Below are positions 46,944-54,797 of a stretch of 64,000 nucleotides of DNA, piece after piece. Below the pieces are notes generated by a model. It was not told where the DNA came from and searched no databases. It saw only the letters and a list, made by a program, of their open reading frames with translations. This stretch comes from Sphingobacterium sp. (lineage in GTDB: Bacteria; Bacteroidota; Bacteroidia; Sphingobacteriales; Sphingobacteriaceae). The stretch lies in contig JALAGS010000028.1 in NCBI GenBank assembly GCA_022712315.1, positions 1 to 64,000 of the forward strand, given 5' to 3'. The stretch's first letter is position 1. Each line of letters begins with the position of its first letter. A program made the translations under genes and the position numbers.

Positions 46944-47522
46944 ATGAGTGGATTCGTAGATCGAGAAGATTTGAATAAGGCCCTGGAGACGCTAAAAAAT
47001 GGCGGACTGATCTTATACCCCACGGATACAATTTGGGGAATAGGCTGTGATGCGACCAATCCAGAAGCAGTAGAAAAAGTCTTTCAGCTGAAAGGAAGAG
47101 ATAAATCCAAAAGTCTGATCGTCTTATTACATAACGACAATCAATTGGCGAGTTATGTCAATGAGATCCCAGAGGTTGCTTATCAACTTATTGAATACAC
47201 GGAAAAACCCTTGACAATTGTCTATTCGAATGCCAAAAATCTTGCTCCCAATGCAATAGCGGAAGACGGATCAATTGGCATTCGGATTGTCAAACATCCT
47301 TTTTGTGAACAGCTTTTACAACGGTTCCGCAAACCGATAATCTCCACTTCGGCAAATATCAGCGGTGCTCCCACAGCAAAAGATTTTGACGAAATAGCTG
47401 ATGCCATCAAAGAGGGAGTGGACTATATTGTCGCCTACGGCAGAGATGTAGCAACAGATGGAAAATCATCTACCATTATGAAACTGGACCCTAGTGGTAA
47501 ATTCGAATTTATTAGAAAATAG
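46944..47522 (+). CDS. L-threonylcarbamoyladenylate synthase (Sua5/YciO/YrdC family)
   Basis: 192 aa; GGLILYPTDTIWGIGCDATNPEAVEKVFQLKGRDKSKSLIVL, ISTSANISGAPTAKDF. Confidence 0.93.
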   Translation: MSGFVDREDLNKALETLKNGGLILYPTDTIWGIGCDATNPEAVEKVFQLKGRDKSKSLIVLLHNDNQLASYVNEIPEVAYQLIEYTEKPLTIVYSNAKNLAPNAIAEDGSIGIRIVKHPFCEQLLQRFRKPIISTSANISGAPTAKDFDEIADAIKEGVDYIVAYGRDVATDGKSSTIMKLDPSGKFEFIRK

Positions 47523-47523
47523 C

Positions 47524-48003
47524 ATGAAAAAGATTTTTTTAATTTTTGTATTAGGGATTGCCCTTGCCAACCTTTCTTCAGCACAGCAAAAGGACATTCC
47601 TTCAGCAAAGCCAGGTGTTAAATATGGAAAGGAAATCTCTGCTTCCAATGCAATATCAGTAGCAAAGCTTGAAAAAGAACTCAGCAAAAAAAATGCTTTC
47701 AACGGGAGAATAGAAGGCAAGGTTGTTGAAGTTTGTAAGAAAAAAGGTTGTTTCATGACACTGCAACGAGATGGTGAAGAGCCTATTACTGTGCGTTTCA
47801 AAGACTACGGTTTCTTTATGCCGGCAGATATTATTGGTAAAACAGTTGTCGTTGAGGGTATCGCAAAGAAAAAGGAAGTTTCTGTTGCTTCTTTACAACA
47901 CGCGGCCAAAGATCTTGGCAAATCGCAAACTGAAATAGATCAAATTACACAACCCAAGAAAGACATTAGTATTATAGCTGATGGAGTTCTGGTTGTAAAA
48001 TAA
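47524..48003 (+). CDS. Secreted DUF4920-like protein
   Basis: Start set at MKKIFLIFVLGIALANLSSAQ. GKVVEVCKKKGCFMTLQRDGEEPITVRFKDYGFFMPADI. Confidence 0.82.
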   Translation: MKKIFLIFVLGIALANLSSAQQKDIPSAKPGVKYGKEISASNAISVAKLEKELSKKNAFNGRIEGKVVEVCKKKGCFMTLQRDGEEPITVRFKDYGFFMPADIIGKTVVVEGIAKKKEVSVASLQHAAKDLGKSQTEIDQITQPKKDISIIADGVLVVK

Positions 48004-48883: not shown

Positions 48884-49906
48884 CTATCTCCCTACAAACG
48901 CCGCATCGCTTAATGTTTTAATAAAAGCGATAATATCCTCCTTTTCCGCTTCGGTCATAGCAATCCGATTGCCATTTTCTTTAAGCAAAGGATCTAAATT
49001 AGCTGCATCCAAAACGCCATGATCAAAATAATCCAAAACAGCTTTTAGCGTCGGAAACTGGCCAAAACTTCCATAAGGAGCCGTATATTCGGCATTCCTC
49101 AAAGACGGCACCCGAAAAGCCATATAATCTTCTTCCGCACCTGTGATGCGCGCCCTCCCCGCTTCGTCGGGATTTTTATTTAATGGGAACCCCACATTTC
49201 TAAAACTCTGATCGGTAAATAATTCTGTTGCATGGCAACTTTCACATTTTAACTTAAACACCTGGTACCCCCTTGCTTCCGAGATTGTAAATTGCTCTCC
49301 TTCACCTCGTTTTACCTTATCATATTTACTGTTGGCCGAAATTAAAGTATACTCATACTGTGCAATACTTTTATAAATACGATCCGGTGTTATGCGCTCA
49401 TCGCCGAAAACCCTCTTGAACAAATTTTTATAATCGACATCTGTACTGATTTTGCCGATAACTTCTACGATAGAAGAGTTCATCTCCTCATGCGTGATAA
49501 TTGGAACCAGAGGTTGTTTCTCCAGTTCAAGTATATTGCCATCCCAATTGTAGAATTTCATAAAAGCCAAATTCTGTAAGGGGGGCGTATTCCGAAATCC
49601 AACACGACCATATATACCTGTTGCTTGCATTTTTCCATCGGAAAAGGCAAGAGACGGGTTATGGCAGCTTGCACATGAGATCGTATTATTGCCACTAAAT
49701 CTCTTCTCATTAAATAGTTTTTCGCCTAATTCGACGCCATACTTCGTTGGCTTATTGCTATTAAATGAATTAGTTAAACTGGGGAAATCTGCCGGAATAT
49801 TGAAAGGGATTGTGGGGTTGTCTTCAATCGCATATTCAACGATGTCATCCCTGCTACAGGACAAAGCGATTACTATAACTGTTAGGATTAAGATGACTTT
49901 TTTCAT
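48884..49906 (-). CDS. Diheme cytochrome c peroxidase/MauG-family protein (MbnH-like candidate), lipoprotein
   Basis: 340 aa; lipobox IALSCSRD; two heme motifs CASCHNPSLAFSDG and CESCHATELFTDQSFRNVGFP. Confidence 0.92.
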   Translation of the reverse strand: MKKVILILTVIVIALSCSRDDIVEYAIEDNPTIPFNIPADFPSLTNSFNSNKPTKYGVELGEKLFNEKRFSGNNTISCASCHNPSLAFSDGKMQATGIYGRVGFRNTPPLQNLAFMKFYNWDGNILELEKQPLVPIITHEEMNSSIVEVIGKISTDVDYKNLFKRVFGDERITPDRIYKSIAQYEYTLISANSKYDKVKRGEGEQFTISEARGYQVFKLKCESCHATELFTDQSFRNVGFPLNKNPDEAGRARITGAEEDYMAFRVPSLRNAEYTAPYGSFGQFPTLKAVLDYFDHGVLDAANLDPLLKENGNRIAMTEAEKEDIIAFIKTLSDAAFVGR

Positions 49907-50053
49907 CCTTCTATTTTTATCAATGGTTGACGATTATCCAAAACACATGTTCCGAAGGCATGATGCCAGCAGAATGGTCACATTTGTTTATGCATGACTT
50001 ATTTAAATAAACGGCTACAACCTAATTCAAGATTATAGCCGTTTACTTACTAT

Positions 50054-50902
50054 TTAGTTGGAAACACTCTCAACAGCAAACATACCGGCGGTATCGCTAG
50101 TTCCATTTCCACCGAGGTTATCAACAAACTTCACCATTTCCACGGCCGAATGAATACTAGGCACGGCATTATTCGCGCCCAAAGTGATCGTATTGGTTTT
50201 TCCGCTTAGAAGCTTATCGAAATCTGCTCTGATATTAATTTGTGGCACACTTTTGCCTACATTCATTAAAGATGGTAGACTTAATGTGATATCCCGATAA
50301 GCATCTACACCTTGTTTATAAGTAGATTCATCGCCATTTGTTCCATTAACCGTACTTCCTGTATGGATAGATAGTTCCTTATGGTCTACACCATAAAAGC
50401 CTTCCAGTTTTGTAAACCTGTACCCAGTTCCCCATTCCCAATGCATTTGGGTATCGTTTGCACCTGCAGCCGCATAAAAAGCTGGAAATCTAAGTTGGTC
50501 CAAGGTATTTATCTCCTGCTTAACACCCAAACCAAATTTAATCTGTTTGTATTCGCCAACAGGTATATTACTCAGCACATAATTTAAACTTGCCGCTTTC
50601 GCCTGATCGATTACTGTCGCCCCCCTATCCAAGTCATTTACATGATAAGGGACTTCAGTCCCATCGGATTTAATAAGCCTGATATTGCTAATCACATACT
50701 TGAGCTCCGAAAATTGATGCACTTGTCCATTCGCCGAGGTATTTGTTGCAGCTGCGGGAGATTCAGCTCCACCTAAAACAATTGTTGTATTTTTAAACGT
50801 ATTGTTGAAATGCAAATTAACACTATTGGCAACATCTTCACTTTTACTGCATGAAATCATGACCAGCGAGATCATCATAAGTTTGATTGTATTTGTTTTC
50901 AT
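50054..50902 (-). CDS. MbnP-family copper-associated lipoprotein
   Basis: 282 aa; lipobox VMISCSKS; FSELKYVISNIRLIKSDG, MHWEWGTGYRFTKLEGFYG. Confidence 0.88.
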   Translation of the reverse strand: MKTNTIKLMMISLVMISCSKSEDVANSVNLHFNNTFKNTTIVLGGAESPAAATNTSANGQVHQFSELKYVISNIRLIKSDGTEVPYHVNDLDRGATVIDQAKAASLNYVLSNIPVGEYKQIKFGLGVKQEINTLDQLRFPAFYAAAGANDTQMHWEWGTGYRFTKLEGFYGVDHKELSIHTGSTVNGTNGDESTYKQGVDAYRDITLSLPSLMNVGKSVPQINIRADFDKLLSGKTNTITLGANNAVPSIHSAVEMVKFVDNLGGNGTSDTAGMFAVESVSN

Positions 50903-50924
50903 TTTATGTTAAGTTTTAAATTAT

Positions 50925-52913
50925 TTAAAAATTGATTTTTAAGGATATAAATATATTTCTACCCATACGGGGTATATTTCCCCAATCCGCATAGGTACTA
51001 TAGTATTCATTGAAGATATTTTCCGCACCGACCTGAAATACTGCTGTCAATTTTCTTATCTTGAAATTATAGTCAGCAGAGGCATTCCAGATCTTATAAG
51101 ATGCCGTTTTGTCTTCTCCATATTCGGGACTGTAGTTGACCTGACTAAAGTCTCCGTTGATGGAAGTCTGCACACCGATCATTTTATACCGGTAATGCAA
51201 TGATGTCTGGTAGCTTAATGGACGTATAAAAGGTAGATTTCCGCCCATATTGTCCTTCCCTTTGGCATAAGTAAGTACAGCTTTCCAATCCAGATCCGGC
51301 AAGATCTGGTACTGCGCATCAAGCGCGAGATTAAACAATGTCGCATGATCTAAGGAGGTATACCCTTTCACACCTACAGACTGATAGTTCATCGGGCTAC
51401 CCAAACTCAAAATTCGTCCAATAATGTAATCTTGGATAAAGAAATAGTTTGCCTTAGCACCAATGCTCAACTTCTCCGTCTTAAATCCGGCACTGGCATT
51501 GGCTTCGTAAGAAACCTCATTTTTTAAATCCGGGTTTCCGATATAATCATAGCGATCGAAACTATTATACATGTAATAACCATAAGCTTCCGAAACGGAA
51601 GGCGCCCGGTGTCCAAATCCTGTACCTACAGAAAAGTCAAACGGACCAATATTTAATTGATAGCTGGCATGTAGGCTCGGAAGAACTCTATTTTTCTTTT
51701 GCGGGGAACCGGGATGAAAAATCCAGTTAAATTCGACGTATTTCGAATAATTATAGTTCAAACCCAATGAGCCCCCAAAGACAACTCTGCTGATATCGGA
51801 AAGATCCAGTGTGTTATTCATCGCTACACTCGCAAAACGCGTGGTCACCCATGGCCAGCTATAGGCAAACATGGTTTGCTTGGACCGGTCCTGAGGATAC
51901 ATACGCATTTCCGCGATAGATAGATTGTCGTAAGCATTTACCTGTATTTCAGAAGAATAACGATCTTTCTGCAGATTAATTTTGGACAAAAGACCGTAGG
52001 TTGTGCTCCAGCCAGGCATATCCATATGAACCAAATTTTCAGGACGCGTGGTGTCATCCATATAGTGTTCAATTGCATTAAAATAAACTTTGGTATCCCA
52101 TGCTTTTACCAAGCCTTCTTCAAACAGCTGTTTGTATGCCGCAGAAGTAATAATTGCTCTCGACAGCCACAGGTCCATTGGTAAGGCCGGAAAGCCTACA
52201 TCTTTAGCACGATCAAAAATAGCATCCACCCGAACCGCGGAAAGAGGACTTGTTTTATAAGCCAGACCTAACGATGCATTGAATTTATTATATTGAGAAT
52301 GCCGTACTTCATCGTCATTGCCATCATAATAATTCCCTGCTTTCCGGAAGGCAATACTTCCATCTGCCACAAATTTGTCGCTTGAATAATATAAATTTCC
52401 GAGATTAAAAGTCTGCTTATTATTGAATTCAAAACCTGTCTGATAGGCCCCGCCAAATTTTTTCTGCAGACCAAACGATGTATTTCTTCTTTTCAGATCT
52501 ATACTTCCTGCGACCGAAGCTCCATGTAAATTTCCCTCCTGTCCAGATTTAATAGCTATGGATGAAAGATTATTACTTTCGACATAGGAGGTTATCGGAT
52601 CCATCTTATCGGTACAGGCTCCAAAGACATGCATTCCATCGATCGTTATTGTAGAACGCTCACTACTCATGTTATTGAGCAGGGGCTCCCAAGCATATGC
52701 TCCACGTTTGATGAAACTAATATTACTTGCAGAGGCTAAGAATTCATCCACGGAGACTGCCATCTTCAGATCGTTCTCAATCTTCTTTTTGACTGCTGCA
52801 TTGACCGTCACCTCCTCAAGACGTCTCGTTGTATCGCGCGTAACAGCATTGCTTTGTCCATTAACATTCAATCCCAAGAGAAGCATCAAGAGACTAAAAC
52901 TTATCTTCTTCAT
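50925..52913 (-). CDS. TonB-dependent receptor, OprC/NosA-like copper receptor
   Basis: 662 aa; plug DGMHVFGACTDKMDPITSYVESNNLSSI with CxxxM (C100/M104), HxM at 283-285 (EHYMDD), C-terminal beta-barrel ending FISLKINF. Confidence 0.92.
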   Translation of the reverse strand: MKKISFSLLMLLLGLNVNGQSNAVTRDTTRRLEEVTVNAAVKKKIENDLKMAVSVDEFLASASNISFIKRGAYAWEPLLNNMSSERSTITIDGMHVFGACTDKMDPITSYVESNNLSSIAIKSGQEGNLHGASVAGSIDLKRRNTSFGLQKKFGGAYQTGFEFNNKQTFNLGNLYYSSDKFVADGSIAFRKAGNYYDGNDDEVRHSQYNKFNASLGLAYKTSPLSAVRVDAIFDRAKDVGFPALPMDLWLSRAIITSAAYKQLFEEGLVKAWDTKVYFNAIEHYMDDTTRPENLVHMDMPGWSTTYGLLSKINLQKDRYSSEIQVNAYDNLSIAEMRMYPQDRSKQTMFAYSWPWVTTRFASVAMNNTLDLSDISRVVFGGSLGLNYNYSKYVEFNWIFHPGSPQKKNRVLPSLHASYQLNIGPFDFSVGTGFGHRAPSVSEAYGYYMYNSFDRYDYIGNPDLKNEVSYEANASAGFKTEKLSIGAKANYFFIQDYIIGRILSLGSPMNYQSVGVKGYTSLDHATLFNLALDAQYQILPDLDWKAVLTYAKGKDNMGGNLPFIRPLSYQTSLHYRYKMIGVQTSINGDFSQVNYSPEYGEDKTASYKIWNASADYNFKIRKLTAVFQVGAENIFNEYYSTYADWGNIPRMGRNIFISLKINF

Positions 52914-52918
52914 AGCTA

Positions 52919-53824
52919 CTAGAACAGAATATCAATGTATAACTCACTTTTACGTCCTTCTACACCCGGTGTAAAATCTTTTGGCACCTCTGTCCCGGCT
53001 ATTACCCGTCCATTTTGGTTAACCAAAATAAAATTCAGCGTCCAATTGCCTGTCATTGTGTAATTCACAACACCTTGATACAATCCACCTCCCTGCTGTA
53101 CCAAGTCCTTGTTATTGGGCGAAGAATGGTTACCCATCGAAGGTTCCGGCATCCGTGGATCCAATTGCAGGACATATCCATTGACTGTGGCATAAGACAA
53201 TTGTGCGGCATCCAATTTATAAATCCCTGCAACCAATTTATTCTCAGAAACATTCGGCTTCCTTGGAGAAATCAACGCAATTATATATTGCTCATTATCT
53301 TTCCCTGTAAATGTGGTCATGTTAAGATTTTTGTTTGTCTGCGGCTTTACAGTTACATTTTGTATAGCCGAAAAATTCTGATCGCCAATTTTAAAATTGA
53401 TTTCCAAACTCCAGGTCGTTCCTTCAGAGCTCGTATTCATAAACACACTGTACCCCGAAAAATAGCGACCATCCAAGGTATAATCCAATACCGATTGGTG
53501 TGGACAGGAAATTTTCACTCCTTGAGCATCGGTCTGTATTGGTCGAAAGCCGACCGAAGAAACCTCCACGGGCTCATTTGTTTGCTGCTTATTAATTTTC
53601 ACCCGGATATCATTGTATCCCCGGTACAAAACTCCTCCTAAGGCCTCAATACGAATAGTAAAACCCGAAGAAACAAAACTCGAAACCTCTTTAAACTCCG
53701 GATTCTCCTCAACTGTATTTCCCCGTTCAGCCTCATAATCTGTTTTTTCCTTTGTACAGGATGTTAGGAAAAAGCATATAATCAAGATATAGAAACCAGC
53801 ACTTTTTAGATATAAATCTCTCAT
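52919..53824 (-). CDS. Lipoprotein with YtkA-like domain(s)
   Basis: 301 aa; lipobox FFLTSCTKE; GGVLYRGYNDIRVKI and MPEPSMGNHSSPNNKDLVQQGGGLYQGVVNYTMTGNWTLNFILV. Confidence 0.8.
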   Translation of the reverse strand: MRDLYLKSAGFYILIICFFLTSCTKEKTDYEAERGNTVEENPEFKEVSSFVSSGFTIRIEALGGVLYRGYNDIRVKINKQQTNEPVEVSSVGFRPIQTDAQGVKISCPHQSVLDYTLDGRYFSGYSVFMNTSSEGTTWSLEINFKIGDQNFSAIQNVTVKPQTNKNLNMTTFTGKDNEQYIIALISPRKPNVSENKLVAGIYKLDAAQLSYATVNGYVLQLDPRMPEPSMGNHSSPNNKDLVQQGGGLYQGVVNYTMTGNWTLNFILVNQNGRVIAGTEVPKDFTPGVEGRKSELYIDILF

Positions 53825-54238
53825 CTATAATTTTTCATTTGTGATGAAACTATCCGAATAATTCATTTCCTCATGTGATTATTCATGCGTAATTTTTATA
53901 CTCATGGATCCGTCGCACGCGGTTTAAATAAATCATAACGGTATCATCTGTTACGAATGGATCTATTTTATCGTATAGATGAATCTAGTATGCTCCATTC
54001 AATTTTAAGAGAATTGAAACCGCTAGATTGATTTTCAACAGATTAACACCTATTATTAAGGTTCGAAAATCCATTCAAAATGGCTTGGATCCACATAGCA
54101 ACATAGCCCAAACAATCAGGTCGGTTTCATTGAAATAACTAGTTATTGAATAAGGGTTCGCGACGATAAAAAAATCAACAGGACGTATCCTTCATGAAAG
54201 AACCGCTATTACTTATTCAAATAAAATGTTAGCTGGAT

Positions 54239-54616
54239 TTAAACCAAAGGGGGATGAAATATTGTAAAGATGGGGTTATAGGAATAATCTTCTTTATATA
54301 CTGGAAGCAGGCGCTCCACAGTGTCTTCATAAAGAGTTGCGCTCTTAAACGTAAAATCTTGCGTATTATTTATAAAAACGACATCAATAATGCGGAATTC
54401 AAGGTTTTTTTGTTCCTTTTCCTCATGTTCGCGCATCTTTTTCATCAAAATACATTGTCCTCTACAGGCCAATGCATTATCGTTAAAGCGATTGATACAT
54501 TCGTAACGTGCGATATAATCTCTATTCAATTCGAAGACCGTCCACAGCCATACCGTTGAGAAGCTCTGTAGGAGCATCAAGGGTAATAGAATCCATATAA
54601 ACAGTCTGACTTTCAT
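54239..54616 (-). CDS. Small membrane-anchored protein with CxxxC motif, unknown function
   Basis: 125 aa; N-terminal hydrophobic helix; ARYECINRFNDNALACRGQCILMKKM. Confidence 0.7.
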   Translation of the reverse strand: MKVRLFIWILLPLMLLQSFSTVWLWTVFELNRDYIARYECINRFNDNALACRGQCILMKKMREHEEKEQKNLEFRIIDVVFINNTQDFTFKSATLYEDTVERLLPVYKEDYSYNPIFTIFHPPLV

Positions 54617-54767
54617 TCGAATACTTTATTCTCAATAACATCTAACGTCATGAAGATAAATCACTTGTCTTGTAAATTTACAAAATCAAGCTGATGATAA
54701 CTCATCTCGAGAGCTGGGCAAATATAACAAATGAATCTTGGAATAAACAAATTCCATTAGAAAGAAA

Positions 54768-54797
54768 AAGTCCTAGGCAGAAAACTACCCAGGACTT
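54768..54797 (-). terminator. Rho-independent terminator downstream of the PUL operon
   Basis: Minus strand aagtcctgggtag-tttt-ctgcctaggactt followed by tttct; 13-bp stem with two wobble pairs. Confidence 0.7.

Follow-up and report, generated by a model that had tools for sequence, protein, structure and literature searches.

The copper protein MbnP and its dihaem partner MbnH of Methylosinus trichosporium OB3b (7L6G and 6E1C; NCBIfam families TIGR04052 and TIGR04039) are encoded by adjoining genes, and the pair occurs far beyond methanobactin producers (PMC3621798). A copper protein with a dihaem partner is also found in the MopE/SACCP and CorA/CorB systems of methanotrophs, where kynurenine lies at the copper sites of CorA and MopE (PMC3912023) as Kyn-x-His, and for which the cited literature names no receptor or leader alongside. 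The TonB-dependent receptor OprC of Pseudomonas aeruginosa, to which NosA is related, has a copper site of the form CxxxM-HxM (PMC8610252). CutF of Rhodobacter and CruR (DUF2946) of Bordetella are short exported, copper-sensing leader proteins; CruR has a CXXC motif, a RAPP motif, a conserved 45-residue spacing and a 162-nt gap, its system combines a C>G bubble with Rho-dependent termination, and the genes that follow it are a copper receptor gene (crtA) and a PepSY_TM gene (PMC9426467, PMC12914433). Here we describe five genes at positions 48884-54616 of a 64,000-nt stretch of Sphingobacterium sp. (the window; assembly GCA_022712315.1, contig JALAGS010000028.1, positions 1 to 64,000), which we read, with a probability of roughly 0.75 for the statement as a whole, as a copper-acquisition operon that carries its own copper-sensing leader.

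All five open reading frames (ORFs), pointed out in an earlier note made from the sequence alone, are present on the minus strand, and their order of transcription is a short CxxxC protein, the putative leader (54239-54616, 125 aa), a YtkA-like lipoprotein (52919-53824, 301 aa), a TonB-dependent receptor (50925-52913, 662 aa), an MbnP-family lipoprotein (50054-50902, 282 aa) and an MbnH-like dihaem enzyme of the MauG/CCP type (48884-49906, 340 aa). The note's copper link with an OprC-type receptor, its MbnP/MbnH pair and its MHWEWGTGYRF motif are all borne out by the alignments and models given below, and its statement that methanobactin genes are missing extends to the whole genome, from which an MbnB-family gene is absent. 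A scan of one-genome-per-species contigs carrying this MbnP subtype yielded 74 loci in Sphingobacteriaceae, Flavobacteriaceae and Chitinophagaceae (Sphingobacterium, Parapedobacter, Olivibacter, Pelobium, Flavobacterium, Winogradskyella, Formosa, Maribacter, Tamlana, members of the Chitinophagaceae and others), and since the order leader-YtkA-receptor-(second leader)-MbnP-MbnH was kept in about 70 of the 74, the gene set goes far beyond chance. Of 396 Bacteroidota genomes sampled evenly, 97 had an MbnP gene; receptors at least 63% identical to that of the window were present in 10 (its own genome included), all adjoining an MbnP match, and five receptors at 34-43% identity were not beside one.

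Most MbnP genes in related genomes belong to another cassette, which we call type A, consisting of leader, MbnP, MbnH and a CDICGC barrel, often with SCO1, whereas the window represents type B, with YtkA and the receptor upstream of MbnP-MbnH and without a barrel downstream. For MbnP and for MbnH alike, the type-B sequences lie together on one side of a well-supported branch (Shimodaira-Hasegawa-like approximate likelihood ratio test 99 and 100), and because each forms one matching clade the two proteins appear to co-evolve. Other arrangements were also encountered. In two Wenyingzhuangia loci (L104, L120) a full type-A cassette stands directly before a type-B leader-MbnP-MbnH, replacing YtkA and the receptor; locus L176 (2541-6843) has leader, YtkA and a weaker relative of the receptor (404 bits), after which comes not MbnP-MbnH but a lipoprotein-like protein of 272 aa without Pfam match, possibly a third version of the operon.

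In the receptor, C100, M104, H283 and M285 align to C143, M147, H323 and M325 of OprC from the Protein Data Bank (PDB), placing CxxxM in the plug and HxM in the barrel at matching positions. The four ligands are present in 70 of 70 receptors with residues at those positions, and the same 70 have a further invariant H296-M297-x-M299, 11 residues past HxM. Overall similarity to OprC is weak (phmmer E about 1e-6), and because of this, and of a TIGR01778 score under the cut-off, the receptor is not filed as an OprC ortholog; judged by its aligned site it is OprC-type, differing from OprC/NosA of Pseudomonas in its occurrence in Bacteroidota, its extra HMxM and its operon context. The lipoprotein encoded just upstream matches the YtkA-like family PF13115 (E 4e-7) and has the invariant stretch RMPxxSMGNHSSxN...YTMTGxW, with M225, M230, H233 and M257 kept in 71 of 71 sequences.

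The MbnP protein matches PF20243 with 122.9 bits (cut-off 27; E 2e-35), and its AlphaFold2 model, with a predicted local distance difference test (pLDDT) score of 84, has a sole significant PDB match, 7L6G (E 5.6e-10, template modelling score 0.59), the solved MbnP of M. trichosporium. A phmmer search of MbnP against the PDB returned chance matches only, the kinship coming from profile and fold searches, and MopE and CorA were not among the significant matches of the fold search with the model. The WEW of the window (W155 and W157; 50432-50440, minus strand) falls on MAWNW in the alignment with 7L6G, where H180 pairs with the His of HVGST. As the first Trp of WxW is the residue turned into kynurenine in MbnP, W155 is the candidate for such a conversion here, in a WxW context as against the Kyn-x-His of MopE and CorA. 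W155, W157, M153, H180 and M256 are invariant in 75 of 75 sequences. Outside the signal the lowest pLDDT falls exactly at residues 156-158, which leaves the geometry around the candidate site uncertain; moreover, the DHxHN C-terminus found in most type-A MbnP is absent from type B, and the type-B copper site therefore need not equal that of type A. In both MbnP and MbnH the lipobox is followed by acidic residues, which we read as a surface-export signal and which would place both proteins at the cell surface.

MbnH matches the CCP_MauG family PF03150 (E 4e-49), and its model, of moderate quality (pLDDT 75), finds as best fold match the MbnH structure 6E1C (E 4e-16). The two CxxCH haem sites (C78/C81/H82 and C221/C224/H225) are present in 74 of 74 MbnH sequences, as are Q131 and E141 of the distal, peroxide pocket, and the inter-haem W121 is present in 73 of the 74. 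By modelled fold the protein is thus placed in the MbnH/MauG superfamily. The window pair has in common with that of OB3b the adjoining genes, both folds, WxW, the inter-haem Trp and the Gln/Glu pocket; it differs in forming a distinct clade, in a genome devoid of methanobactin genes, and in being coupled to an OprC-type receptor, a YtkA lipoprotein and a leader. In Sphingobacterium multivorum NCTC11343 (L113, 8861-10100) MbnH is frameshifted after the second haem motif, with MbnP intact (90% identical).

The first gene, which the earlier note had counted as one of five parts of the acquisition system, is better read as a leader of the CutF/CruR type. Its product has a hydrophobic N-terminus, the motif Cx10CxGxC and a C-terminal FHPPLV with Pro-Pro at 122-123; the family pattern is Cx10-11CxGxC and a C-terminal [FL][HRV]PP, with the three Cys and Pro-Pro invariant and the C-terminal surroundings variable. 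Among 128 family members 124 are shorter than 150 aa and 125 have Pro-Pro within the last 15 residues, a position found in only 8 of 833 other ORFs of the same loci (at least 150 aa) used as control. The Cys-to-Pro-Pro spacing stays within 62-70 residues save for one outlier; 66-69 predominates in front of YtkA, and 23 of the 30 copies preceding MbnP have 63. PMC9973294, which counts CutF-like proteins of Bacteroidota, gives CutF itself a CxxxC and describes CutF-like proteins as shorter than 150 aa, carrying a signal, having Pro-Pro among the last 15 residues and followed within 1000 nt by a gene on the same strand. The window leader agrees in length, Pro-Pro and gene distance, as the next same-strand gene starts 414 nt away, beyond a candidate attenuation region (53825-54238, minus strand) whose length in relatives is 21-577 nt.

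In 18 regions fetched the leader was recognised in 17, each time as first gene of an operon continuing with a TonB-dependent receptor and PepSY_TM gene, SCO1, YtkA or the CDICGC barrel, and 36 of 41 genomes from the bacterial family contain such leaders, genomes without MbnP among them. A second copy often lies between receptor and MbnP. The genome of the window holds three copies, one heading a receptor and PepSY_TM gene and one heading a YtkA gene. On its contig C24 (L167, 97000-110510) two operons diverge, and leaders of this family head both: one comprises a 713-aa TonB receptor and a PepSY_TM protein, and the other comprises a YtkA lipoprotein together with a cytochrome c and an AraC-type regulator. 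The leader thus shares with CutF and CruR a short, putatively exported product, a Cys motif, a C-terminal Pro-Pro, the first position and a same-strand copper gene downstream, and with CruR the receptor-PepSY_TM operons; unlike them its family has CxGxC plus a third Cys, a different arrest motif and a spacing of 62-70 instead of 45, and also heads MbnP/MbnH operons. Pfam and NCBIfam searches returned no credible name for it and no DUF2946 match; because of this and of the departure from RAPP we do not call it CruR, and on its sequence it works like CutF/CruR at most. Over the last 120 nt of YtkA-leading copies C exceeds G by +10.5 and +13.7 per cent; at the same place in other operon genes the value is mostly negative. 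The window, where the bubble lies over the end of the leader, has 20 C vs. 6 G at -66 to +12; as a regulatory signal this bubble is suggestive only. The gap had no match in Rfam, and rare Pro codons were not found at the putative stall site, where usage is near background. Overall, the CxxxC protein is probably a regulator and not a part of the acquisition machinery, and it is likely that it controls the operon in response to copper.

The operon could accordingly work as follows. The short exported nascent chain of the first gene would sample copper with its three Cys while its C-terminal Pro-Pro is in the ribosome, and copper would alter the stall and thereby set the expression of the downstream genes, most likely turning them off, as with CruR. 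Under copper scarcity the OprC-type receptor would be made and bind copper ions through CxxxM-HxM, the MbnP lipoprotein would capture Cu(I), and the dihaem MbnH would mature MbnP, most likely by oxidation of W155 to kynurenine; the Met/His-rich YtkA lipoprotein probably accepts copper or hands it on.

Several results weigh against this copper-acquisition reading. The receptor scores 72.7 bits with TIGR01778 (TonB-copper; cut-off 472); the earlier note had proposed a search with the MbnP and MbnH families, and there the Pfam profiles matched while MbnP reached 60.5 bits with TIGR04052 (cut-off 140) and MbnH 202 bits with TIGR04039, under its curated cut-off, as the tested type-A MbnP and MbnH likewise stay under the NCBIfam cut-offs. 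The arrest motif is [FL][HRV]PP and not RAPP, the C>G bubble is partly due to amino-acid composition, and the predicted RNA fold of the gap in the window is not significant (z -1.1). A further point concerns the residues required for bis-Fe(IV) chemistry, whose absence the earlier note would count against its reading. This holds in part: MbnH retains Trp121, Gln131 and Glu141, while the aligned position has no axial Tyr. In MauG the six-coordinate haem has Y294 as its axial ligand, with Y463 its equivalent in BthA, and the changes Y294H in MauG and Y463H in BthA abolish the near-infrared bis-Fe(IV) signal, BthA Y463H remaining a peroxidase (PMC6405878). In type-B MbnH this position is F in 52, L in 18 and M in 3 of 73 readable sequences and never Tyr; it is F294 in the window, and the phmmer alignment of the window protein with MauG stops where residue 294 of the one meets residue 294 of the other. 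The type-A motif VLxHYxxG, which carries the axial Tyr, becomes VLDYFDxG in type B, and PYMHDG becomes PYGSFG. Type-A relatives carry the Tyr with one exception, an MbnH of the same genus (L041, 5656-6678) with VMQQFQSG (QF) in its place and a shortened C-terminus. Since the axial Tyr is absent at the aligned position, we do not claim full MauG-like chemistry for the enzyme. The operon may then serve copper acquisition with an MbnH that makes no kynurenine, acting as a peroxidase or on another residue, and an MbnP whose copper binding, if there is any, goes through His/Met, a version to which the loss of DHxHN also lends support and which we hold to be a real possibility, though less likely than not. 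Against it speak the (nearly) invariant W121, Q131, E141, CxxCH sites and WxW, the matching clades of the two proteins, and a Tyr one residue before the axial position that is itself invariant (73 of 73; Y293 in the window). Haem ligation may be shifted by one residue, or the second haem may be ligated differently. In light of the axial position our confidence in the conversion of the MbnP Trp to kynurenine by MbnH is lowered, to about an even chance.

The remaining alternatives concern the other components. The hydrophobic N-terminus and three invariant Cys of the CxxxC protein, and its frequent second copy between receptor and MbnP, would suit a working periplasmic or membrane copper chaperone, but its first place in the operons of the contexts examined, a Pro-Pro fixed in a variable C-terminus and the near-fixed Cys-Pro-Pro spacing are hallmarks of CutF/CruR and make this unlikely. 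It is quite improbable that the operon serves copper detoxification by sequestering the metal at the surface: YtkA-type and MbnP-type proteins could do so, and CutF, a related kind of leader, turns on a multicopper oxidase at high copper (PMC9973294), but a TonB receptor carrying an OprC site serves import, the five genes include no efflux gene, and CorA and MopE (PMC3912023) as well as the OprC ortholog NosA (PMC8610252) are copper-repressed. We give very little credence to haem or a metal chelate as cargo of the receptor, which scores slightly higher with TIGR01786 (haemoglobin/transferrin) than with TIGR01778 (87 vs. 73 bits, both far under cut-off), against which stand the four OprC ligands and the HMxM, invariant in 70 relatives.

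The copper-acquisition operon is set off from the upstream GH30/Sus-type genes by an intrinsic-terminator-like hairpin (54761-54797, minus strand), of which locus L053 has a perfect version, and by a promoter-like TTTG-N21-TATATTTG upstream of the leader (54719-54751, minus strand), both seen in the sequence. We take TTTG and the -7 box as the Bacteroidota promoter consensus; 29 of 69 loci have the -7 box CAAATATA/TATATTTG 5' of the leader vs. 2.9 expected, and TTTG-N18..22-TAnnTTTG in 8 of 69 vs. 0.3 in shuffles. A TTGTAAATTTACAA palindrome upstream of the leader was rejected as a regulatory site, being missing even in the close relative L052, and the palindrome AAATGAY-N-RTCATTT was set aside as an operon site, with only 6 of 69 loci and none in the window. 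In some Sphingobacteriaceae (L054, L059, L067, L101, L117) the latter lies ~45-80 nt before the leader start and is possibly the site of a regulator. FNR-like and CopY-like sites were not found upstream of the leader. Downstream, on the opposite strand, lie folP-like and DUF4920 genes; the DUF4920 protein (47494-48003), beside folP and outside the operon, has the motif CKKKGCFM.

No paper describing this operon was found in a literature covered in part. The operon recurs across Bacteroidota and brings three known copper devices together as a single conserved unit. Copper import across the outer membrane has been little described in Bacteroidota, the cited papers on OprC and CrtA dealing with Proteobacteria. 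We tentatively suggest a Bacteroidota-wide route of copper import whose MauG-family enzyme, despite lacking the canonical axial Tyr ligand, modifies the WxW Trp of MbnP or makes some other modification; control would lie with copper-sensing arrest leaders of a new subclass, found in the family also at the head of other copper-type receptor operons. A whole clade that has lost the aligned Tyr and kept the substrate motif offers a natural test of whether this Tyr is needed for Trp oxidation in the MauG family, and a copper-sensing leader is proposed for a large group of receptor operons.

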